DNA of 31,597 bases from a virus. The notes under the pieces were generated by a model that did no database searches, was not told the origin of the DNA, and saw only the letters and a list, made by a program, of their open reading frames with translations. Shown piece after piece: positions 1 to 11,933 of this stretch (within the stretch, counting starts at the first letter, position 1; the number at the start of each line of letters is the position of its first letter). The stretch lies in IMG/VR virus record IMGVR_UViG_3300032073_000138, positions 1 through 31,597 of that record, one strand, 5' to 3'. The position numbers were made by a program, and so were the translations under genes.

Positions 1-3000
1 GGAGACATTCCTTCTTTCTTAGTCAATTCATTATATCTATTTCTATACCAAGTAGCACCACCAGAAGCTATTGCAAAGCTATCCATGAACTTAGTAGGTG
101 TATATCCCTTTTCTAATATATAATTAATAATAGCTTTAGCTTTGTTTTTACTAGTTCCAGCAGCATCAGCAATTTCACTTTCAGATATATTTAATTTCAA
201 TCCATTTCTTCTGTCTACTAAGTAATCCGAATTCATTATTTTAACAAAGTCTTTAGAATACTGAGGCATGTTTGCTAATGCTTTGCCAGCTTTTATAGGA
301 TTATTAAAACCCATGTTAATATAGTTGGCAGAAGATATAGATTGTAACAATGCTGATCTCATATTTAAGAACATAATGGTTCCTTGAGCTCCGTTAATAT
401 AGTCTAGTAAGCCATCACTAAATTTATTTCCAGTGGAGGTTCTATTAACACCAGTTTTCATTCGTTTAATAGAATTTTCTAAAGCTTCTCTATATTTCTT
501 TCCGTAAACTGCTTCAAGTTTATTTAAGTTCTTTTCAGAAAAAATAACTTTAACATTATCATTCCACTCTTCTAAAAATTTATTTCTTTTAGTAGTATTA
601 AGAAGATTAATTAAATCAGTAGTTATAGTACCACTTAACCATTCTTTTTTAGGTTCAAAATATTTATCCCCTTTAGTAATAGTTTGAAGCTGTTCAGCGA
701 AAGCTTTTAGTTTTGGGTTGTTTTCAATAATATCAGTAAGTTCTTTAAGATCTTTTTTAGACAATCCTGGTATCTCGTTTCCTTGAGATTTCCAAATGAA
801 AGCTCTTACAGCATGTTCGTTTGTAAAACCAGATTTAGTAGTTTCTCTTAAGTCTTTAGGAACTTCTAAATCTTTTTTCAACTGTTTAAAGTCTGCCATT
901 AGAGTAATTTTAGCAGAAGCCATACTTCTCACACCTCTGTTGTATGGTTTAAATAAATTATTTTCATACCACTTCAATTGATTCTCTCCTAACCTACCCT
1001 TACCTAACGTAGGGTATACTAATCCTAGAAAATCTTCTGCACCTGGCGGTAAGAAAAACTTTCCTTTTCCTTTCCTCTTACCTAACACTTCTGCTTTAGC
1101 TGGAGAAAATTCCTTAAACCATTCTATACCTGTACTAGCTTCTAATATTCTATTAAATTCTCCATCTAAATCTTTAGATTTACTAGCTATAGCTTGTTGT
1201 ACTTGAGACTTAACATCTATCTGAGACAACACATCTTTAACTGCTTTAACATTTTGAACAGCATCATCTGCAAAGTAAAAGTCATTGTAACCTTCTGCTG
1301 CTTTATCTAAGATCCATTCAGCTTTAGCTGCACCAGTGGAATTACCTAAACCTTTGATATGACTTAATGGTATATCAATACCCATTTCCTTTAAGAAAAG
1401 TTTTATAGCTGGAGCTGATTCTTGAGCTCGAGCAGTTAAGATAAACATGTCTCTATCACCAGCGGCATCTTTCATCTTCTTCATTAAGTCAAACAACGGT
1501 CCTTTCTTACCTTCAACCACTCTGTTGAAATCAGAAAAATCCATTTTCCAACCTTCTCTAACTAATTGTTCTCCTTGTTTAGCAAACTCTTCAGCTGTCA
1601 AAGTCTTTTTGTTTCCATCCTTAGTAGCAAATACTTTACTATTAGTTCTAGCTACAGTATCATCAAAATCAAACACTCTAGCTTTTTTAACGGGTTTATT
1701 TAACTTTCTTCCCCTTCTCGCAGCTTCATCCGCTTTAACTAATTTTTCTATAGATACACTTACAGGATCTAAATCTTTTGATTGACTTTTTATTGGGTTT
1801 AATTCTTTGTTTTCACTAGAGATTTTCTTAAGATCATTTCTTCTTTCTAATGCTTTTTTCAAAATCAACTCACCAGCTTTAGTTTTCCCGCTTTTTAAGT
1901 ATAAACTTAAACCATCGGTTAACCATGGTTCTCTTAAAACATTTAACTCTGCTTTAGAAAGATTTAAATCTTTAGCAGTTCTATTTACTATAGCATCGTA
2001 ATAGGTTTCTTTAAATCCGCTATCTACAGTTCTATAGTTCTTTAGTTCTTTTAAATCTAAAGCCATTCGCGCTAGGGTAGAAGTGTTAGTAGTACCTCCG
2101 ATTTTATCTATTACATCTAATAACCTTTTAGGAGACAATACGCCAACGTAATCTTCCATGGATTTCTTACCTTGTGTATCCCATTTTCCCTCCACAATAG
2201 CTTTAGCGCTTTGCATTGATTGATCTACTGATGTTTTTAAATGCTCTAGTTTTAACGTTTCTAAATCTAATCTTTTTCCTTTTGGCCAATATATAGCTTC
2301 AATAGGAACAGCTTGTCGATCTAAACCTTGTACTAAATTTGTGTTTTCTTTAGCTTTACGAAGCACGTATTCTACTCTATCTAAGACTTCCGCTTCTGTT
2401 TTAGCTTCAGCTATATATTCTTCTTTAGCTTTTTGAATAGCATCATACACTTCTCTTCTTAGTGCATTGTTTCCTTCATTGATTTTTTTAGATACAAACT
2501 CTGCTATCTCTGCGTCAGTTAAATCTTTAAACTCTTTACCCATTCGAGTTTTCATCTGGGAATCTGAATAAAAGTCTTTTAATTTTTCTTTTAAACCTTT
2601 AAAAGCTTTAGATTCATTTTTGCCCAAAGCATCCATAACTCTAGTTCCTTGACTTTTAACAAATGGATTGTCAAACATTTCTGATAATTTTCCACCAGTC
2701 TCTTTGAGCATTTTAGGTGTAGGATCTATTGCCTTGAGTTTTTCTATTCTCTTATTGTTTTCCTCTATCTTCTTTTCCCAATTCTTAGGTTTTTTAAAAA
2801 ATAATTCTGCATTATTTTCTCTATATTCACTTATCTTCTTGTCTGCTCTTGCTATAGCTTCTTGAACACTTAAAGAGGATTTACCTGTTGGAGTAGTTCC
2901 TAATCCTACAGTTTGTAATATAGCTTCTTTATTAGCCATTTCACGTAACCAAGGTGGAAGCTTTTCAGCAAACTTAACAGCATTATCTATGTATTTTGAT

Positions 3001-6000
3001 AAAACAGCTTCATTAAAGAAATAAGCCTTCTGTTTACCTTTACCTGCTGAAGTACCATACATCGAAGCTTCTGAAGATTTTAAATATTCTTTTAATTCAG
3101 AGATATTATACTTTTTACCCTTAATAGTTACTTCATTTGGTAGAGCATCAATTCCTTTTGAAAAACTTGCACCACCTTTTTCCTTAGCAGCTTTAGCTAT
3201 AGCTTCTAGATTTTTAAGTATAGGTACTTCAAAATGTTTTATGTGTTTAGGATTTGCAGATAACCATTCTCCCAAAGTGTTAATACCAACGCCAACATCA
3301 TAAGACATTTCAGCAAAAGCTTCTGGATCTGCAGCTCTTAATGATTCCATTGAATCAATCATTCTACGAAATGCAGGGTCTTTACTATTATCTTTTAACT
3401 CCTTGAATGCGTCTTCAATTCCCTTTAGATCTTTACTTTTAGACAATATCAAATCTGGATGACGCATGATATCATTAGCAATTTGCTCTGCTAATAAATC
3501 TCTTTCCACTTCTTTACCTAAACTTTCTTTATTTCTTTTGATGGCTTCAGGCATTGCATCTTTAAAAATAGTTTCTGCCATCATGTCTACCATCTGAGTT
3601 CTCAATTCATTAGGTCTAGCACCTCCTTTAAATTCGCCTGTACTAAAGTGAAAGTCTACCCAGTCTTGTTTACTTATTTGACCTGGCTTTTCTCCAAACT
3701 CTTTAAAGTCATATGCAACTGTTTCTTTTCCTTTCCTTACTTGCACTCTTTTGGGAGCTCCACTTTTAGTAAAACCTTTTTCACTGTATATAAAATCTTT
3801 ATAACCTTTTCCTCCAGGTTTAATGAAAACAAAAGGATCTCCTTCTAATCTTCTACCTCCTTCTGCAAGTTTAAAGTTAGCTAAGTTTTTAAATTCTTCG
3901 TACGTTTCTTCTAAGACTTTCTTATATTCTTCAACCTTACGAGCTTGTGGAACTTTTTCTAATAATATATTTTTTATTTCTTTTCTAACCTCTTGTCTTA
4001 ACTTAGTAGTCAAAGCTTTTTTGGAATACTTTTTAGATAAAGTAGGAATTGTTTCTTTTACAAACTTATCCGCTACTTCTTCTACTCTTTGTTTTTCTTT
4101 AGGACTAAGCTTAATGGGTTCACTTTTCCTCATAGTAGATTTAGGAGCAGGACCTTTAACTTCAGTTGATCCTACTTCAGGTGTTGTATCTGCTATTTTA
4201 TCTCCTTTAGTTACAACCCTTCCTTCATCTTTACTCACTGGCTTATCTAAAGAAGTCGTTTTCTTTCTAACCGCCTGCTTACCTACATCACCTGTTCTTT
4301 GTTTTAACTTTGTATTAACAAAACTTAATAACGTAGATTTTCCTTTTCCAGCCACCTCAGTTGGATCAAACCTAGCAAACTCATCTATTAATTTATCAAA
4401 AGCTTTTCCTTGAGCTATTTCTCTATCTCCTCCCTCTAAACTGCTACTTAATTTTTTATCTATGTTAATTTTTACTTTAGGAGAGTTATACAAGAATTCT
4501 AAAGCAGCGGCATATTCTGGACTATTTTGCCATTCTTCTTTTGTTTTATATTTCCTATAATCTACCTTAGCCAAGTCGTCAAAAGAATTCACTTTAACAT
4601 CTAATGATTTTATTTTATCAGCGTTCTCTTTCATTTTGGCCTGCCATCCCTCAGGTTTGTTAGCAAACAATTCTTTATTCTCAGATACAAGTTGCTTTTT
4701 TAATTCTCTAGATTTCGATGCTACTGATTCAACGTTAGTTTTTACTGGTATATTTTTTAGCGTTTTCCCACCAATGATCATAGTAGCTACTTGATTACCT
4801 TTACCATCTATAGTAACATCTACTAATTCATTTTGAGATCCTATCGCATTTTCCTCTGCCTCTTTTATTTCCTCTAAAGATTCTTTATCTACTACTTTCA
4901 AATCTTTAATTAGTTCGCTAGGACTTTTGTATTTTCTTTTTTCTTTAACTGTAGTTGATTCAGGAGCTTTTTCTTCTACCACTTCTTCAACGTCCAATTT
5001 TTCTTCTACTTCAGCTGTTTTCTTTTTAGTTTCTGCTTTAGGTTTCTTTTTAAGAGTAGCTTCTGCTTTAGGAGCTTCAGCTGCTGGCTTACCTGGCACG
5101 TTATTTTTAGTAGTAAAGTCTATTATTCTTTGTTTAGCTTTAGCATCAGTATTAGCTTTATTAAAATCTCTTAAAAATTTATAAAGTTCTTTACCAGAAC
5201 TTATACCAACTTGTTTTCTAAAATTAGACCCCATTTGGTCAGCTAACTTGTTAAAAACTTTGTCACTGTATTGAATCTCCCCTCTTTTAATACCATCCAC
5301 AAAAGCATTTAAGTATTCTTCATAATACCTTTCTTTAGGCACAACACCATCTTTAGAGTAATTGTCTTTTATCCTATCATTTATTAATCGTTGTTGATCA
5401 GGAGGTAACATTTCTTTAAACGAATCTATAATTCCTATACCTTCAGCAGTTATAGTACCATTAGGATTTTTAAAAGAATTTTTTAATACAGCATGCAGTA
5501 ATTCGTGGGACGCTACACTATTAGCTTTTCTACTTTTAGCTAAATCAGTGTTGATGTATAAAGTGTTATCTCTAAATTGTCCTTCTGCACCTTTGTCTAA
5601 TTTTAAACTTTTCCATTCTTCCGGTGTTAATTCTTCCAATTTAATCTTTTCTCCAAAAAACCCACCTTTCTGGTTAATAGCATCGATCATGGATTGAGTA
5701 TTTTTTATATCTTCAGTTAACATTATATCGGAAACTTCTTTAGCTTTCGCTTGAGTATCCCTCATATTGTTTTCGCTTGCGATGATTTGCTCTTTTACTC
5801 TAGCGATTTGAGGATTTAACACTGATTCTAGAGCAGGGTTTTCTTTAAGTTTTTTCTCTAAATTTCTTTGTTGTGCATCTAAGTTTTGGCGATTGGTTAT
5901 ATGGTCTACCATTTGTAAACCTTCTTCGCTCTGAGGATTTATTCCAGCTTCTTGTAAAGCTTGATAGATGCGACTATTGCTGCTATACTGACTTTCTACA

Positions 6001-9000
6001 ATAGCTCTCATTTGTTCTCCAGCTTGTCTATTGCCCGAGGCTTTATAAGAAATATATTCTGGACCTAGCTTATTTAATATAAACATGTCAGTAGAATTTA
6101 ACTTTTCTCCCTTTAATATTTTTCTAGAAACTGTGTAAGCTTGGGCGTCTAATCCCTGCATGTAGTTCGCTGTCTGTTTAGCTTTTACTACATCGTTAAA
6201 ATAATTTAACGATTCACCTGCGTCTTGCAGTTCTTTTATTTTTCTATTTTGTTCTGGAGTAATAGGTCCTACTTCTGGGAGATCTAAATCTTTAAATATT
6301 TTTTCCTCAACTTTAGCTTGGATTTCTTCAGGTCTTCCATAATATCCATCCTTACCCTTTTGTAGTCCTAGTAACTTTGCAGCTTTCATTGCTTCTGGGG
6401 TATTGCCACTAAGTCTTAAAATATCTCTTCCAACATCTTGAATACCTGGTTTCATTTGACCTGGTAAATTAAATGCTAGAAACCCCATGTAATCTCCTAT
6501 TACTTGTTTAGCAGAGTATTGTTCTGTAATTCCTTCTAATCCAAAATTTTCTTTACTTGAATCAAAGTTTGATGCAAAATATTCCACACCTTTAGCTCCT
6601 TCAAATACACTAGTTGAAACTCCTGTTCTACCTAACACTTGACCAGCTCTTTCTACATTACTAAAATAACCTAATTTATTTAAAACCGGAGCTGCATATT
6701 TGCCATATCTTCCAGTAAGTTTATTAGCAATTTGAGAGTACATAGAATTACCCGCACCTAACGATGCTATGAACACTTGATCTGCTTTATGAGCTCCATA
6801 CACCTCGTGACCAACTTGATCTACTACCGAGAACATCATAACTTCGTTTAAAGCACTAGCATTGTATTTAGTAGAACCTATAAAAGTATTAACTATTCCG
6901 TTCCACATTCTAGATTTACCTCGACCTTTCAACGCGTCTCCTACTCGGTTTATAGCATTCGCTTTACCGGTAGGAAAGAATTTTCCCATTGCTGTCATAC
7001 TTCCTATCAAAGGAGCTAGACCGGTTACTACGTCTGCACCAACCTCTTGCCAACTGTCATAATGCATAGAAAGAAGTTCTTCTGGTACGGCATATCCTAG
7101 TTCTTCTTTAATACCTTTCATTATATCAAATCTCTCCTCTTGATCAGTATTACCAGTACTTAATCCAATATTATATGCTTGTTGAAAAGGATCAACCCCT
7201 GTCACCATGTCAAATAAGTTGCCGAATTGTCTCCTTGCTTCTCCAATTTCCCCCAAAGTAGTAGGATCTGAATCTAGTTGTAAAGCTCTATTAAGCACTA
7301 GCATTTTATCTTGTGCTTGTTCAAATTGTGCAGCTAAAGGATGACTACCGGGTAAGTTTAAAGCTTTACCTAACTTACCTGATGAAATCATTTTTTGAAT
7401 ATTCTTAGTATCATCATACCAAGTGTCTTTATCCTTATTTAAAAGTGGGTGTTGAAATAAATTGTATTTATCATATCTTAACAATCCAGCTCCTTTCTCA
7501 ATTAAACTTCTTTCTTTACCTATATCAACTACATTATCTCCTACTTGTTTTAGTAACTCCATATAGTCATAGTAAGCTACATTAAGACTTCTTTTAATTT
7601 GATCTCTTCCCTGGTTCTTAACTATTTCTTCTGCTTCCGCATTTAATTCCTGTTCTTGATGTTGAGCTATAGAATTAAGTAAATTCCCGTTTTCATCAAA
7701 CAGTCTTTCACCTAGATTTAACTCTTCTCTTTTTTGGTTTATAGTATTTTCTAACTGGAGTATTGCTTCTTTATCTCCTCCTTCAGATTTTAACCTAGCT
7801 AATTCTTTTTCTTGATCAATGTACTGTAATTCATTTTCTGTTAAGAAAGTAGAAACTTCATTTATCGAATTATCAATTTGCTTTTCTTCACTACCCATTT
7901 CTGCTAATGCCGATATTCTACTGTTTTTGGCATTACGCTTATTATAGTAATTTTGTAATTCAGGATTATGGAAATATTCATATGGTACTTTTCTCCCATC
8001 AGGTAACTCATAATGATACTTTTTATTAGCCATACCTAATGTTAATGCTTGACCTAAGGTAGTGCTTGAACCACCTCCTGGGCCACTAAGCCCATCAAAG
8101 CTAGCAATGTTATGTACCATAAAATCCCATGCAGCACTTGTAGAACTTCTACCTGGAGTTCCTAAAGGAACGTTACCTTCAATTAATTTAATCCCGTTAT
8201 CATAAGTTCTAATAACAGGGTTATCATACCCAGTGACTAAGTCAAATCTAGTAGATCCTTCTTCTCCAAGAACGTTACCAACTCCATATCGTTCACCACC
8301 AATCTTTTCGTTTTGCATAGATGTGTTCCTCTCCACTAACTCCGCATTTTCCAACCATGGATTTATTCCAACTTCCTCCATCATATCCAGCTTATAGTTT
8401 ATTTCGCCAGTGGGATCTGAAGCGTTATCTATACTGTAAGCCATAGATGGATTATTAATGAGCATATTTTCAGTTAAGCCATTAATCTCTCTATTTTTTT
8501 TAATTTCCTCAGCGTGTAATCTAGCTTCTGCATTCTCAGGAGAATCATCGTTTAGTACATTTTGAAATTTAAGTTGCTGATAATAATCCATTAAAGGATC
8601 ACTTCCAGTAAGGTTATTAAAGCCCATAGAGTTAACACTACTTCTTGAAGAAAAATCCATATTCTCTTGAGCAATTTCCATTAATTGATCATCTGAATAT
8701 TGAATATTTTTATCAAGAATTTCTGATGGAACAGGTGTTTGATAATTAGAGTCTTCCTGTTGCGAAGTTAAACTTACTAACTCTTCTTTTGTAGGAGTAA
8801 TTTGAGTTTTTAATTCGTTAAGCTTTTTCCATTTTTGATAATTGCTAGCGTCTACCGTAGGTCCTTGATTAGCATAGTACTCATCAAGCTTAGCTTCTTC
8901 TACATTTTGGTCAGGGAACCATTCTCCTAAGTCTGTTTTAAGAACTTCAATTTCCTTATTTACTTTTTCTATTCTTGGAGTAGTAGGTCTAGAGTCTTGT

Positions 9001-9194
9001 TCGGTTACAACTTCTTCCTCTTCTTCCACTATAGTTTCATCAGGAGTTTCTATTACTTCTTCTTCTTCTATAGCTACTTCTTGAGTAGGTTTATAGTCTG
9101 GGTTACTTGTGTAATACTCTATAACTTTACGTATATTAGTTTTACTTTGCCCCGCGTCTAACATACGTTGCACTATAGCTTCTAAGTCTTCCAT
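1..9194 (-). CDS. Giant polyvalent virion/ejection protein, >3064 aa, C-terminus beyond window
   Basis: One open frame runs from an ATG at 9194 off the left edge, giving 3064 complete codons and no stop. It begins 13 nt after the stop of the 563-aa gene. The N-terminus is followed by a strongly acidic stretch (EEEEV, EEEEEV; residues ~40-65) and then a long helical, charged region. Residues ~715-870 are rich in Gly/Ala and hydrophobic residues and could contact a membrane. A zincin motif HELLH lies at 1230-1234 and a complete HAD phosphohydrolase motif set at 2509-2644. Between them are Lys/Glu/Ala-rich linkers (~1350-1410, ~1620-1700) and unrecognised helical domains. After the HAD domain comes a region (~2790-3064) with LDYINGAQGTIMFLNMRS and IASGGATWYRNRYNELT, a pattern I recall from very large marine phage proteins. 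Position last in the structural cluster, and size, suggest an internal protein ejected with the DNA, analogous to T7 gp16 or crAss-like cargo proteins. I saw no lytic transglycosylase motif in the visible part. The open frame is certain; the role is inferred. Confidence 0.9.
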   Translation of the reverse strand, partial: MEDLEAIVQRMLDAGQSKTNIRKVIEYYTSNPDYKPTQEVAIEEEEVIETPDETIVEEEEEVVTEQDSRPTTPRIEKVNKEIEVLKTDLGEWFPDQNVEEAKLDEYYANQGPTVDASNYQKWKKLNELKTQITPTKEELVSLTSQQEDSNYQTPVPSEILDKNIQYSDDQLMEIAQENMDFSSRSSVNSMGFNNLTGSDPLMDYYQQLKFQNVLNDDSPENAEARLHAEEIKKNREINGLTENMLINNPSMAYSIDNASDPTGEINYKLDMMEEVGINPWLENAELVERNTSMQNEKIGGERYGVGNVLGEEGSTRFDLVTGYDNPVIRTYDNGIKLIEGNVPLGTPGRSSTSAAWDFMVHNIASFDGLSGPGGGSSTTLGQALTLGMANKKYHYELPDGRKVPYEYFHNPELQNYYNKRNAKNSRISALAEMGSEEKQIDNSINEVSTFLTENELQYIDQEKELARLKSEGGDKEAILQLENTINQKREELNLGERLFDENGNLLNSIAQHQEQELNAEAEEIVKNQGRDQIKRSLNVAYYDYMELLKQVGDNVVDIGKERSLIEKGAGLLRYDKYNLFQHPLLNKDKDTWYDDTKNIQKMISSGKLGKALNLPGSHPLAAQFEQAQDKMLVLNRALQLDSDPTTLGEIGEARRQFGNLFDMVTGVDPFQQAYNIGLSTGNTDQEERFDIMKGIKEELGYAVPEELLSMHYDSWQEVGADVVTGLAPLIGSMTAMGKFFPTGKANAINRVGDALKGRGKSRMWNGIVNTFIGSTKYNASALNEVMMFSVVDQVGHEVYGAHKADQVFIASLGAGNSMYSQIANKLTGRYGKYAAPVLNKLGYFSNVERAGQVLGRTGVSTSVFEGAKGVEYFASNFDSSKENFGLEGITEQYSAKQVIGDYMGFLAFNLPGQMKPGIQDVGRDILRLSGNTPEAMKAAKLLGLQKGKDGYYGRPEEIQAKVEEKIFKDLDLPEVGPITPEQNRKIKELQDAGESLNYFNDVVKAKQTANYMQGLDAQAYTVSRKILKGEKLNSTDMFILNKLGPEYISYKASGNRQAGEQMRAIVESQYSSNSRIYQALQEAGINPQSEEGLQMVDHITNRQNLDAQQRNLEKKLKENPALESVLNPQIARVKEQIIASENNMRDTQAKAKEVSDIMLTEDIKNTQSMIDAINQKGGFFGEKIKLEELTPEEWKSLKLDKGAEGQFRDNTLYINTDLAKSRKANSVASHELLHAVLKNSFKNPNGTITAEGIGIIDSFKEMLPPDQQRLINDRIKDNYSKDGVVPKERYYEEYLNAFVDGIKRGEIQYSDKVFNKLADQMGSNFRKQVGISSGKELYKFLRDFNKANTDAKAKQRIIDFTTKNNVPGKPAAEAPKAEATLKKKPKAETKKKTAEVEEKLDVEEVVEEKAPESTTVKEKRKYKSPSELIKDLKVVDKESLEEIKEAEENAIGSQNELVDVTIDGKGNQVATMIIGGKTLKNIPVKTNVESVASKSRELKKQLVSENKELFANKPEGWQAKMKENADKIKSLDVKVNSFDDLAKVDYRKYKTKEEWQNSPEYAAALEFLYNSPKVKINIDKKLSSSLEGGDREIAQGKAFDKLIDEFARFDPTEVAGKGKSTLLSFVNTKLKQRTGDVGKQAVRKKTTSLDKPVSKDEGRVVTKGDKIADTTPEVGSTEVKGPAPKSTMRKSEPIKLSPKEKQRVEEVADKFVKETIPTLSKKYSKKALTTKLRQEVRKEIKNILLEKVPQARKVEEYKKVLEETYEEFKNLANFKLAEGGRRLEGDPFVFIKPGGKGYKDFIYSEKGFTKSGAPKRVQVRKGKETVAYDFKEFGEKPGQISKQDWVDFHFSTGEFKGGARPNELRTQMVDMMAETIFKDAMPEAIKRNKESLGKEVERDLLAEQIANDIMRHPDLILSKSKDLKGIEDAFKELKDNSKDPAFRRMIDSMESLRAADPEAFAEMSYDVGVGINTLGEWLSANPKHIKHFEVPILKNLEAIAKAAKEKGGASFSKGIDALPNEVTIKGKKYNISELKEYLKSSEASMYGTSAGKGKQKAYFFNEAVLSKYIDNAVKFAEKLPPWLREMANKEAILQTVGLGTTPTGKSSLSVQEAIARADKKISEYRENNAELFFKKPKNWEKKIEENNKRIEKLKAIDPTPKMLKETGGKLSEMFDNPFVKSQGTRVMDALGKNESKAFKGLKEKLKDFYSDSQMKTRMGKEFKDLTDAEIAEFVSKKINEGNNALRREVYDAIQKAKEEYIAEAKTEAEVLDRVEYVLRKAKENTNLVQGLDRQAVPIEAIYWPKGKRLDLETLKLEHLKTSVDQSMQSAKAIVEGKWDTQGKKSMEDYVGVLSPKRLLDVIDKIGGTTNTSTLARMALDLKELKNYRTVDSGFKETYYDAIVNRTAKDLNLSKAELNVLREPWLTDGLSLYLKSGKTKAGELILKKALERRNDLKKISSENKELNPIKSQSKDLDPVSVSIEKLVKADEAARRGRKLNKPVKKARVFDFDDTVARTNSKVFATKDGNKKTLTAEEFAKQGEQLVREGWKMDFSDFNRVVEGKKGPLFDLMKKMKDAAGDRDMFILTARAQESAPAIKLFLKEMGIDIPLSHIKGLGNSTGAAKAEWILDKAAEGYNDFYFADDAVQNVKAVKDVLSQIDVKSQVQQAIASKSKDLDGEFNRILEASTGIEWFKEFSPAKAEVLGKRKGKGKFFLPPGAEDFLGLVYPTLGKGRLGENQLKWYENNLFKPYNRGVRSMASAKITLMADFKQLKKDLEVPKDLRETTKSGFTNEHAVRAFIWKSQGNEIPGLSKKDLKELTDIIENNPKLKAFAEQLQTITKGDKYFEPKKEWLSGTITTDLINLLNTTKRNKFLEEWNDNVKVIFSEKNLNKLEAVYGKKYREALENSIKRMKTGVNRTSTGNKFSDGLLDYINGAQGTIMFLNMRSALLQSISSANYINMGFNNPIKAGKALANMPQYSKDFVKIMNSDYLVDRRNGLKLNISESEIADAAGTSKNKAKAIINYILEKGYTPTKFMDSFAIASGGATWYRNRYNELTKKEGMS
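1215..1712 (-). other. HAD-superfamily phosphohydrolase domain within the giant protein (residues ~2495-2660)
   Basis: All four HAD motifs are present in order. Motif I is ARVFDFDDTVA, with nucleophile D2509 and acid/base D2511. Motif II is MFILTAR, with T2587. Motif III is the lysine in SHIKGLGN, K2614. Motif IV is FYFADDAVQNVKAV, with D2643 and D2644 for Mg2+ binding. The spacing (78, 27 and 29 residues) fits a compact HAD with a small cap inserted between motifs I and II. In HAD enzymes the first Asp forms a phosphoaspartate intermediate and hydrolyses phosphate from small molecules, nucleotides, nucleic-acid ends or proteins; the substrate here cannot be told. A stand-alone HAD gene is ordinary in phages, but an embedded one about 1,280 residues after a zincin in one virion polypeptide is unusual. 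The motifs leave little doubt about the fold; catalytic competence is likely because no key residue is missing. Confidence 0.85.
5295..5657 (-). other. Zincin-like metallopeptidase domain within the giant protein (residues ~1180-1300)
   Basis: The encoded stretch reads ANSVASHELLHAVLKN, with the zinc-binding HExxH motif as HELLH at residues 1230-1234 (5507 down to 5493). About 58 residues later, YYEEYLNAF (E1292, E1293; codons at 5316-5321) offers an acidic residue on a helix that could be the third ligand. Just before the motif, FRDNTLYINTDLAKSRK resembles the strand segment that commonly precedes the active-site helix in zincins. HExxH followed by a distant EExxxxA helix is the pattern described for metallopeptidase domains of phage and conjugative-element polyvalent proteins. 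The substrate is unknown: it could be self-processing of the giant protein, other virion proteins, or a host protein after ejection. The motif is read directly; domain borders and activity are inferred. Confidence 0.65.
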
Positions 9195-9207: not shown

Positions 9208-10899
9208 TTACTTACTGAACATTTTTATTAAGTCAGTTGCAGATAACTCTTCAAAATCTACATCTTTAATTGTTTCAAAATAATCTCCCCCTACTTCATT
9301 CTTTGCTCCAATAGCTCCTACATTAGCCGTGCTTGACCAAGGTCTATATTTTCCAGGATCCTCATTACTCGTCTTTGGTACTTTGTTTTTCTTAATTCCA
9401 GTTTTTGATCCATCAATTAAAACTTCTCCATCTTCGTCTATTGTGATTGTCTTAGCTACTTCAGTGACATTACCATCTTTATCTTCTACTTTGTTTGGAG
9501 GTAATTGTCTTCTAAGCAAGTCCATCATCATTTCATCTCCCTCTGGAGAGTTAGGAATACCTGACAATTCTTCATTAAGCTTAAGAGCGTATTGTTTTTG
9601 CAATTCTTTCTTCTCATCTCCTTTGGCATTTTTAAGTCTTTGCAATGCTAGATCAGCTCTATTGTTTCTATTACTTTGAGCGTCTTTCATTTGTTGCAAC
9701 TTGTATGCATCGGTTTGTTCAAACGCAGGGTTTTTAGTTATATCAGTAACTTGATCTTCTAAGAAGAAACCTTCAGGAGCGTTTAATTGAAAACCAAGAA
9801 TAGCTAACTCATCCATCTTGCCTCTCGTTGGCCAAGAAGGATCGCTAACCCATGGACCTAATTCTGCGTTAGCATCTGCGGCTTTCATTTGTTCCATTAA
9901 GCCTTGATTTGCTTTTCCATCTCCTCCTTCTACCATGTCTTCACCATATAATATCTTTAAAGCTCTATCTTTAATTGGACCATCTTCACCTTGAGAAGCC
10001 ATTGTAACTTGGTCAACTAGTCCAGGAAAAACACTTCTCATATAGTTTTGATCTTTTAAAGTATTTTGCCACGTTCTAGGATCGTCTAACGCTGTTTGAA
10101 TCTCTTGTTTTCTAGCTTGTTTTAATTTTAAAAGTTCTTCAGGATTGGTATTATCGTTTACGTTTATATCTGGATAAGCTTTCTCTAAACCATTATATAC
10201 CTCTTCGGCAACGGGAACAGGATCTCCATTAGTGTTAAAGAAACTTGTTCCTTTCAATCTTTTTTGAGTGTAAAATCCTGCATTTAAATCATATGTCTTT
10301 CCATCTACATCACTTTGAACATGGAAATTTAACTCTCCAGTATCATAGTTATAATCCCATGTTGTATTTTCGTTATTGTTACTAACAGCGTCTCGCATGA
10401 ATGCTGAAGCAGTGGGATCTGTATTCCTCATGTCTATAGATCCAGGTTGACCTTTCTCAATTTCCAAACCTGCCGTCCATGCTTTTTGATCTACATCAAA
10501 AGCTCCTTGTGCACCGGAGAATTTTTCAGGCAACCTCATAATGTTTCTTCTTTTTTTATTGCACTCTGGCGTATCACAGTTTCCTAACTTATACAAGTCT
10601 TCTCCAATTTTCTCAAAATTTTGATAAGATTTATCACTAAAGCCATGACCAGTCTCTTTCTTTAAAGCATCTTCTTGAGTGTCTACAGTACCCCAGTAAT
10701 CATCCATGAAGTTGTCCAACCCTTCTGCTTGTTGTTTTCTATTAGCTTCTAAGAACGCTTCGTTTTGTGCTGTTCGAGCATTTTGCGCGTCACGCATAGT
10801 TGCAAATACATCGTCAAACTTAGCTTGATTAGCAGATAGCGCTGTGTTAATAGCACCTAAACTTTGGTTTATATTTTTTGCCGGATCTCTATATCCCAT
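9208..10899 (-). CDS. Candidate internal virion (ejection) protein, 563 aa
   Basis: The ATG at 10899 is followed by a charged, Asn/Gln/Asp-rich protein with no signal peptide or membrane segment. Residues ~1-60 (INQSLGAINTALSANQAKFD onward) look like a long helix or coiled coil. The middle contains a single CDTPECNKKRR cysteine pair. The C-terminal ~150 residues are helical (around ADLALQRLKNAKGDEKKELQ), then acidic. I do not recognise a named domain. The gene starts 10 nt after the 204-aa gene stops and ends 13 nt before the giant protein starts. It therefore holds the middle place in a three-gene set (204, 563, >3064 aa) that copies the order and size gradient of T7 gp14, gp15 and gp16, which leave the head and form a channel through the cell envelope. 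A role as the soluble, gp15-like member is inferred from context only. Other possibilities are a minor structural or scaffolding component. Confidence 0.9.
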   Translation of the reverse strand: MGYRDPAKNINQSLGAINTALSANQAKFDDVFATMRDAQNARTAQNEAFLEANRKQQAEGLDNFMDDYWGTVDTQEDALKKETGHGFSDKSYQNFEKIGEDLYKLGNCDTPECNKKRRNIMRLPEKFSGAQGAFDVDQKAWTAGLEIEKGQPGSIDMRNTDPTASAFMRDAVSNNNENTTWDYNYDTGELNFHVQSDVDGKTYDLNAGFYTQKRLKGTSFFNTNGDPVPVAEEVYNGLEKAYPDINVNDNTNPEELLKLKQARKQEIQTALDDPRTWQNTLKDQNYMRSVFPGLVDQVTMASQGEDGPIKDRALKILYGEDMVEGGDGKANQGLMEQMKAADANAELGPWVSDPSWPTRGKMDELAILGFQLNAPEGFFLEDQVTDITKNPAFEQTDAYKLQQMKDAQSNRNNRADLALQRLKNAKGDEKKELQKQYALKLNEELSGIPNSPEGDEMMMDLLRRQLPPNKVEDKDGNVTEVAKTITIDEDGEVLIDGSKTGIKKNKVPKTSNEDPGKYRPWSSTANVGAIGAKNEVGGDYFETIKDVDFEELSATDLIKMFSK

Positions 10900-10909
10900 A
10901 TCTTAACTT

Positions 10910-11524
10910 TTATAATGTTGAACCAATGTTACTCATACCACTAGTAACAGCACTAGCTGTATTCCCTACAGCAGCCCACTTCTGAGCTTCATTGTAGTTA
11001 GCTTGAGCTTCAAATTTATCAGCCATATTTTGAGCTCTATCTAATTCCATGAGATCTCTATTTTCTTGTTGTTGCCATTGCCACATACTACCTTCTGCTT
11101 GTGCTTGTTGAATAGCCATAGCAGCTTGAGCTTCTGCTTTTCGATTAGAAAGTTCTTGTTTTTGTAGATCAGCAGAAATACCTTGTTTACTTCTTAAAGC
11201 CATTTGAGCTAACGTTGTAGCTCCACCCTGTGCATATCCAGAAGCTCTCATAGTGTCTAATGTGTTAGCTAGCGCAATATCTGCTTCCTCAGCTTGGAAC
11301 TCAGAAGCTTGTGTAGCAACACCTACTTTAGCAGCTTCGTTAGTTAATCCTTTCATAGGATTATAAATAGCTTGTCTACTACTTTCTAAATCTGCTATTA
11401 TATTCTCTTGTTGTTTTTGCTTTGCTCTAAATTCTTTTTCATCATCATTTGCTTTAACTGCGGTCATAACTGGACCAGCAACCCCTGCTGCAGCTCCTAT
11501 CACTGCCATTGTCGTAACTGCCAT
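10910..11524 (-). CDS. Candidate internal virion protein, T7 gp14-like, 204 aa
   Basis: The protein opens with a hydrophobic, Gly/Ala/Val-rich segment at residues 2-25 (VIGAAAGVAGPVMTAVKA) that could span or enter a membrane. A long Gln/Ala/Glu-rich helical region follows at residues ~30-175 (for example KQKQQENIIADLESSRQ and QAAMAIQQAQAEGSMWQWQQ), suggesting coiled-coil assembly. The C-terminus is Ser/Gly-rich. T7 gp14 has a similar length (about 196 aa), a hydrophobic N-terminus and helical body, and is the first of three ejected proteins; here too it comes first, before a mid-size and a giant protein. The start ATG lies 4 nt after the acetyltransferase stop, with an AATTAATATT leader, so translation is probably coupled. 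The analogy is structural and contextual. No catalytic motif is seen. Confidence 0.9.
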   Translation of the reverse strand: MAVTTMAVIGAAAGVAGPVMTAVKANDDEKEFRAKQKQQENIIADLESSRQAIYNPMKGLTNEAAKVGVATQASEFQAEEADIALANTLDTMRASGYAQGGATTLAQMALRSKQGISADLQKQELSNRKAEAQAAMAIQQAQAEGSMWQWQQQENRDLMELDRAQNMADKFEAQANYNEAQKWAAVGNTASAVTSGMSNIGSTL

Positions 11525-11528
11525 AATA

Positions 11529-11933
11529 TTAATTTAAAATTTTAACTAATTCATGAGACGGTTTGTTGTCCACATTCCATCCAAGTTTTTTATGTGTATT
11601 CATTAAGTTTTTATTTCTTCCTATACTAAACATATACTTATATCCTCCAAGTTTAACAACTTGTTCACATTCATTAATGAGTAGCTCTAAGGCTTGTTTT
11701 CTGTCAGTTTCCCTATAATCGGGATCTGATACTATCCATTCTAATAAAACTGCCTTAGAATTAGTTAAATAAATAAACCCCGCCACGATAGGGATGTTAT
11801 CTTTTTCTACTATAAAACCACCAGTTCCGTTTTCTGGAAAAAAATCTTTAGTTGGAGTTGGCCACTCAGGCCATGATTCCCACCATTTTACAAGTGTACT
11901 CCAATCATTGTCTGTTAATTTACGAAAATTCAA
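11529..11933 (-). CDS. GNAT-like N-acetyltransferase, 134 aa, TTG start
   Basis: The layout is that of a small GNAT enzyme: a helical start (LTDNDWSTLVKWWESWPEW), a beta hairpin (GGFIVEKDNIPIVAGFIYLT, residues 38-57), the central strand LLEWIVSDPDYRETDRKQAL (residues 63-82) with the helix after it, then MFSIGRNKNLMNTHKKLGW, the usual end of the fold where a residue with poor or changed loop still packs against the cofactor. The acetyl-CoA pyrophosphate loop, normally R/Q-x-x-G-x-G/A, reads RETDRKQA here and lacks both glycines, so activity may be altered. No ATG is available: the frame has a TAA at 11942-11940, so the TTG at 11933-11931 is the only plausible start. It lies 10 nt after the preceding stop in the A/T-rich run AATTAAATTAAATTG. 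The gene sits between nozzle and ejection proteins, an odd place for an enzyme. The substrate is unknown; the target could be a protein or small molecule. Confidence 0.8.
   Translation of the reverse strand: MNFRKLTDNDWSTLVKWWESWPEWPTPTKDFFPENGTGGFIVEKDNIPIVAGFIYLTNSKAVLLEWIVSDPDYRETDRKQALELLINECEQVVKLGGYKYMFSIGRNKNLMNTHKKLGWNVDNKPSHELVKILN

Follow-up and report, generated by a model that had tools for sequence, protein, structure and literature searches.

An invariant HAD phosphohydrolase domain resembling Pnkp 3'-phosphatases in a giant, probably virion-packaged protein of uncultured marine podoviruses

The stretch of DNA analysed here, called the window throughout, is a 31.6-kb IMG/VR viral record of 31,597 nucleotides. 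The last gene of its structural cassette is a giant open reading frame on the minus strand (3..9194; all features located within it lie on the same strand) that bears a domain of the HAD phosphohydrolase superfamily. It encodes at least 3064 amino acids, a lower bound since the reading frame is open at the window edge and the C-terminus runs off it. Preceding the giant gene are a 563-aa gene (9208..10899, minus strand) and a 204-aa gene encoding a small internal-protein-like product (10910..11524, minus strand), the latter being conserved ahead of the giant gene at 74 of 80 loci. Positions 11529-11933 encode a 134-aa relative of phi40:1 gp98, a virion protein by MS/MS; the homologue of this protein in MW202828 is annotated as an acetyltransferase-complex subunit.

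The giant gene is syntenic with gp101 of the Cellulophaga phages phi38:1 and phi40:1. In phi40:1, MS/MS proteomics underlies the annotation of the last five structural genes, gp97-gp101, of which the giant gp101 is the final one, and the 134-, 705- and 1776-aa proteins of the window match phi40:1 gp98/gp97. The 204-aa and 563-aa genes are the positional counterparts of gp99 and gp100, respectively; sequence similarity between the 563-aa product and gp100 is not significant, and the two are matched by position. Since the giant protein likewise has no sequence similarity to gp101, the argument for its packaging is one of position. The preliminary description of this DNA had placed the HAD inside a virion protein. 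The domain does lie within the giant polypeptide, and synteny with phi40:1 gp101 indicates that this polypeptide is probably packaged in the virion. By analogy with the ejection proteins of podoviruses, such as T7 gp14/15/16, we infer that it may be injected with the DNA. Comparison with known ejection proteins yielded no sequence similarity above composition-biased noise, and neither an RNA polymerase nor a transglycosylase domain was found in the giant.

All 30 HAD-bearing genomes surveyed carry a single HAD, always within a reading frame of 2.5-3.9 kaa, and in 29 of the 30 contigs the terminase is 72-81% identical to that of the window. The carriers constitute a widespread uncultured marine podovirus lineage, kin to the flavobacterial Pachyviridae, Pervagoviridae and Elemovirus phages. 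The closest named genome is MW202828, with a terminase identity of 62%; the terminases of Elemovirus and Cellulophaga phages are 37-45% identical. Each of these named phages has a long last structural gene at the equivalent position, with no detectable HAD. Homology of the giant protein to elemo gp21, phi38:1 gp101 or the MW202828 giant was considered and rejected, the matches being of low accuracy and compositionally biased. The giant of Elemovirus is without a HAD; a small HAD with the motif FDFDATL is encoded elsewhere in this phage, by a gene of its own (elemo gp51; L083, 8757-9110), and is not detectably of the same family as the HAD described here. The giant gene is also present on contigs from metagenome-assembled genomes (MAGs) labelled Ilumatobacteraceae, Woesearchaeota, Aliivibrio or Clostridiales (L163, L165, L166, L168-L171); these are probably phage sequences that binning assigned to an incorrect host.

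The HAD domain occupies residues ~2503-2680 of the giant polypeptide (1155..1688). Four HAD motifs had been reported in order within 1215-1712; motifs I, II and IV and the numbering of D2509 and D2511 stand, and the lysine of motif III has been reassigned. Motif I is DFDDT (D2509-T2513; 1656..1670), in which D2509 is the predicted nucleophile and D2511 the predicted general acid/base. It is followed directly by a flap beta-hairpin (residues 2520-2533; 1596..1637) that constitutes the C1 cap site. Motif II is LTAR, with T2587 and R2589 (1428..1439), and motif IV is D2643-D2644-x3-N2648 (1251..1268). Motif III had been assigned to K2614 of HIKG (1353..1355), a position that is mostly T, V or I and is K in only 8 of 81 homologues, whereas K2624 (1323..1325), in the context ...GAAK..W, is kept in all 81 and aligns with K258 of T4 Pnkp. 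K2624 is thus the correct assignment.

Motifs I, II and IV are also present in 81 of 81 homologues, and the invariant set comprises D2509, D2511, D2512, T2513, T2587, R2589, K2624, D2643, D2644 and N2648. The earlier statement that no catalytic residue is lost extends to 142 complete distinct homologues, all of which keep the four motifs, although some of the search patterns included motif I/IV peptides and many of the homologues are closely related; D2509 and D2511 in particular are retained in 81/81 and 142/142 sequences. Two of the 142 (L170 and L173) were missed by pattern matching, and reading by eye found the DD pair in both. The first IMG/VR scan had returned 568 stretches encoding a relative. 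Because some scan patterns contained motif peptides, a further sample of contigs was drawn by terminase. The HAD is present in 7 of these 12 contigs, with intact motifs in all seven, one of which (L205/G034) had also been retrieved by the HAD scan; judging from the position and orientation of the terminase, the remaining five seem to end before the HAD part of the gene. The domain is under purifying selection, with dN/dS of 0.07-0.19 in three pairs (dS 0.69 in one, the other two near saturation or saturated).

Invariant residues could in principle serve folding, and the HAD hosts other domains in some relatives, as would suit a module retained for structure or scaffolding after its chemistry had ceased to matter. 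However, it is the catalytic acid, lysine and Thr/Arg positions that are invariant while much of the remainder varies, and we regard such a role as very improbable. The domain is very likely an active phosphatase; both established HAD chemistry and the set of invariant residues favour a Mg2+-dependent phosphomonoesterase.

Conservation in the otherwise hypervariable giant protein is confined to the HAD and an all-helical C-terminal block. From residue ~2489 onward many relatives share 55-70% identity; the ~2,480 residues before the HAD are 20-30% identical or cannot be aligned, and an alignment of 15 giants has almost all of its invariant columns within the HAD and the C-terminal block. The block (3..1157), predicted to be all-helical, extends past the window, is ~780 aa long in L003 and is probably an assembly or ejection core. 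It matched no solved fold, and tblastn against named phages returned no match; as a query it retrieved two loci only, since the patterns derived from it were too specific. The variable N-terminal part contains HELLH, a zincin-type metallopeptidase motif (residues 1230-1234; 5493..5507), and HExxH occurs somewhere in 77 of 81 giants, possibly as part of a self-processing peptidase. Pfam found nothing else in the window's giant protein, metallopeptidase families included.

The location of the gene in the late structural cassette, together with the tie between the HAD and a probable assembly or ejection core, would suit an enzyme that works in the producing cell or at assembly, for instance by treating DNA ends while the genome is packaged, and that is only incidentally present in the particle. 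Proteins at such a position are generally ejected, however, and the kinase and ART-like domains found in the giants of relatives fit delivered effectors (cf. PMC5512222); we therefore consider action in the producing cell or at assembly improbable.

Structure prediction with AlphaFold2 from 26 sequences, a check proposed in the preliminary description, produced a HAD Rossmannoid core with a beta-hairpin flap after motif I (pLDDT 75, pTM 0.70) and no departure from the Rossmann type. The domain almost certainly has the HAD fold. HAD enzymes lead both the Foldseek PDB and the VIA-align rankings for the model. The top VIA-align match is the 3'-phosphatase of T4 Pnkp (Z 12.3, rmsd 2.3 across 126 residues) and the second is clostridial Pnkp1 (Z 12.0); the highest-scoring chain other than Pnkp reaches Z 11.0, a margin of just over 1, and the chains with Z 10-12 are all HADs of varied function. 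Among the first Foldseek PDB matches are MDP-1 and two HAD effectors of Legionella, Ceg4 and Lem4, the last with a VIA-align Z of ~10; these would be in keeping with an injected protein phosphatase that targets host or phage phosphoproteins. VIA-align places Pnkp more than 1 Z unit higher than MDP-1, Ceg4 and Lem4, however, and the sequence profiles do not lead to protein phosphatases, making this function quite unlikely.

Profile comparisons also lead to polynucleotide enzymes. The PHROG family phrog_415 (polynucleotide kinase) is matched by 26 of 26 members (best E 3.3e-10), and the NCBIfam family matched by the largest number of members is TIGR01664, DNA 3'-phosphatase (9 of 26, weakly, best 3.7e-4). 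The PHROG and NCBIfam matches are weak, and the indications from structure and profiles are concordant, each being weak to moderate. For the window copy of the HAD, Pfam gave no match over the cut-off, only sub-threshold chance matches. The profile of the HAD against PDB sequences yielded nothing useful, and hhalign against T4 Pnkp aligned motif I alone. In a phmmer search of PDB sequences PNKP appears only at E ~0.7; the leading matches there, designed PPR repeats aligned in many tiny pieces, were discarded as an artefact.

The catalytic residues D165, D167, K258, D277 and D278 of T4 Pnkp all align with equivalents in the HAD domain. Sequence alignment to the T4 enzyme misplaced motif II, and the S-x-R of T4 was paired with T2587-x-R2589 by motif, by eye. 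Two further T4 residues, R176 and D254, which we take to be essential for its 3'-phosphatase, have no conserved equivalents: K2520, at the first position, is variable, and the second is non-acidic (R2581 in one alignment, T2620 by motif register). Because these two are not conserved, the domain, though it would act like a 3'-phosphatase, is not classed as one. Assignment to the nucleic-acid 3'-phosphatases, taken from the nearest structures and profiles, is plausible but falls somewhat short of an even chance. RNA ligase PF09414 was absent from 17 of 17 contigs in a search whose control worked, which weakens a tRNA-repair reading; a search for RNA ligase PF09511 gave no informative signal, its control being silent. 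The lack of PF09414 favours the healing or priming of DNA ends over tRNA repair.

The substrates suggested in the preliminary description were a nucleotide second messenger, nucleic-acid ends or a phosphoprotein. Nucleic-acid ends are now favoured by the Pnkp structures and the phrog_415 and weak TIGR01664 matches. HAD enzymes typically cleave phosphomonoesters and leave cyclic phosphodiesters unopened, which makes a cyclic second messenger a less likely target of direct hydrolysis. This general property also counts against an injected small-molecule phosphatase, which in the newly infected cell would act on nucleotides, on linear products of nucleotide signalling or on sugar phosphates, for instance to counter a defence signal or alter nucleotide pools, and so does the fact that the closest structures and profiles are nucleic-acid 3'-phosphatases. 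Such an activity is unlikely, although nucleotidases are common among HADs, a HAD with activity on dATP, ATP and IMP serves a type III CRISPR effector (PMC12715507), the substrate-side residues are unlike those of T4 Pnkp, and the cap site is variable among relatives.

In some relatives the HAD match is split. Reading of the inserts ruled out an intein or a HAD duplication; depending on the relative, the split is due to a P-loop kinase, to an ART-like or 40-aa stretch, or to a domain that lies downstream and has a repeated linker. In nine relatives (L267 (=L262), L268-L273 and the MAG contigs L168 and L169) a P-loop kinase of ~190 residues with an intact Walker A motif lies in the turn of the flap hairpin. 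It matches Pfam AAA_33 (3.3e-13) and Zeta_toxin (3.7e-13) and, among PDB sequences, zeta (0.009), PezT (0.02) and T4 PNK (0.14), values by which it appears equally close to zeta toxin and polynucleotide kinase. AAA_33 was found nowhere else in the genome in 14 kinase-free genomes. The same hairpin turn contains an ART-PolyVal-like insert in L265 (E 0.011, below the family cut-off) and a 40-aa insert in L160. On a HAD tree of 142 rows, insertion-bearing rows require at least five changes and kinase rows fall at three places; this scatter indicates that insertion or loss has recurred. Six relatives (L016, L019, L022, L026, L041 and L074) have an extra domain of ~130 aa between the HAD and the C-terminal block. 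It is flanked on both sides by a repeated VLNVxDIKSKxQ-like linker (VLNVxDIKSKVQ-like), which looks as though the linker had served in its insertion; the domain has no Pfam match, and by eye only we would call it GNAT-like.

Our preferred, though tentative, reading is that the domain is an injected phosphomonoesterase, likeliest a nucleic-acid 3'-end healer, within a polyvalent ejection protein. The giant protein would be packaged with its HAD and delivered along with the genome. Following the canonical HAD mechanism, D2509 would take the phosphoryl group with D2511 as acid/base, T2587 and K2624 would hold the phosphate, and D2643/D2644 would bind Mg2+. The likeliest substrates would be 3'-phosphates at nicks or cleavage sites in nucleic acid, and the resulting 3'-OH ends would be usable by a polymerase or ligase prior to phage gene expression. 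A more speculative extension, to which we give rather little credence, is that an injected nucleic-acid end-healing enzyme forms the invariant catalytic core of the ejection protein and has been repeatedly upgraded by a kinase in the cap hairpin, the nested kinase-phosphatase repairing ends before phage expression. Injected enzymes precede any phage protein and transcription-dependent countermeasures and thus reveal the first host barrier to be beaten; here the sole enzyme that the lineage never loses, in a hypervariable giant, is a predicted phosphatase with Pnkp-like features. The question is testable with one purified domain, and the cap hairpin that hosts a kinase or ART-like domain is a natural case of domain nesting in a catalytic fold.

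The last three structural genes of the window run from small (204 aa) through medium (563 aa) to giant (at least 3064 aa), an arrangement resembling T7 gp14/15/16. Compared with podovirus ejection proteins such as T7 gp14/15/16, the N4 vRNAP and the crAss-phage cargo proteins, which are thought to be ejected together with DNA (PMC10136315), the conserved enzyme in the giant is instead a HAD. A literature search of incomplete coverage found no account of a HAD within a virion or ejection protein. Zincins, ARTs, GNATs and zeta-like kinases are known components of polyvalent proteins, which occur in phages and conjugative elements (Iyer et al. 2017, PMC5512222); the text of that paper mentions neither haloacid, HAD nor phosphatase. 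The giant is likewise very long, multidomain and hypervariable, has a zincin-type HExxH motif, and has ART-like and zeta-like kinase inserts in its relatives; no LPD or MPTase Pfam model was matched (an LPD38 profile matched 0 of 10, its control likewise being silent). In jumbo phages, PKN-HAD and Swiss-army-knife HADs are the products of ordinary genes (PMC7824862), and a 462-kb uncultured phage (LR756500; L173, about 9970-10527) encodes a standalone ~180-aa HAD with motif I DLDDC that belongs by sequence to the same HAD family at 26.6% identity. Such standalone phage HADs are free enzymes made after infection, whereas that of the giant lies within a structural protein.

T4 Pnkp (PseT) and bacterial Pnkp1 have in common with the giant's domain the HAD fold and the catalytic set DxD, S/T-x-R, K and DD, with motif I being DVDGT in Pnkp and DFDDT in the giant. 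Unlike Pnkp, the domain sits inside a giant probable virion protein, with no RNA ligase found alongside. The nested kinases recall the kinase-phosphatase pairing of Pnkp: the window protein is without a kinase, but in Pnkp and in nine relatives of the giant kinase and HAD share one polypeptide, the kinase being N-terminal in Pnkp and nested in the cap hairpin in the relatives.
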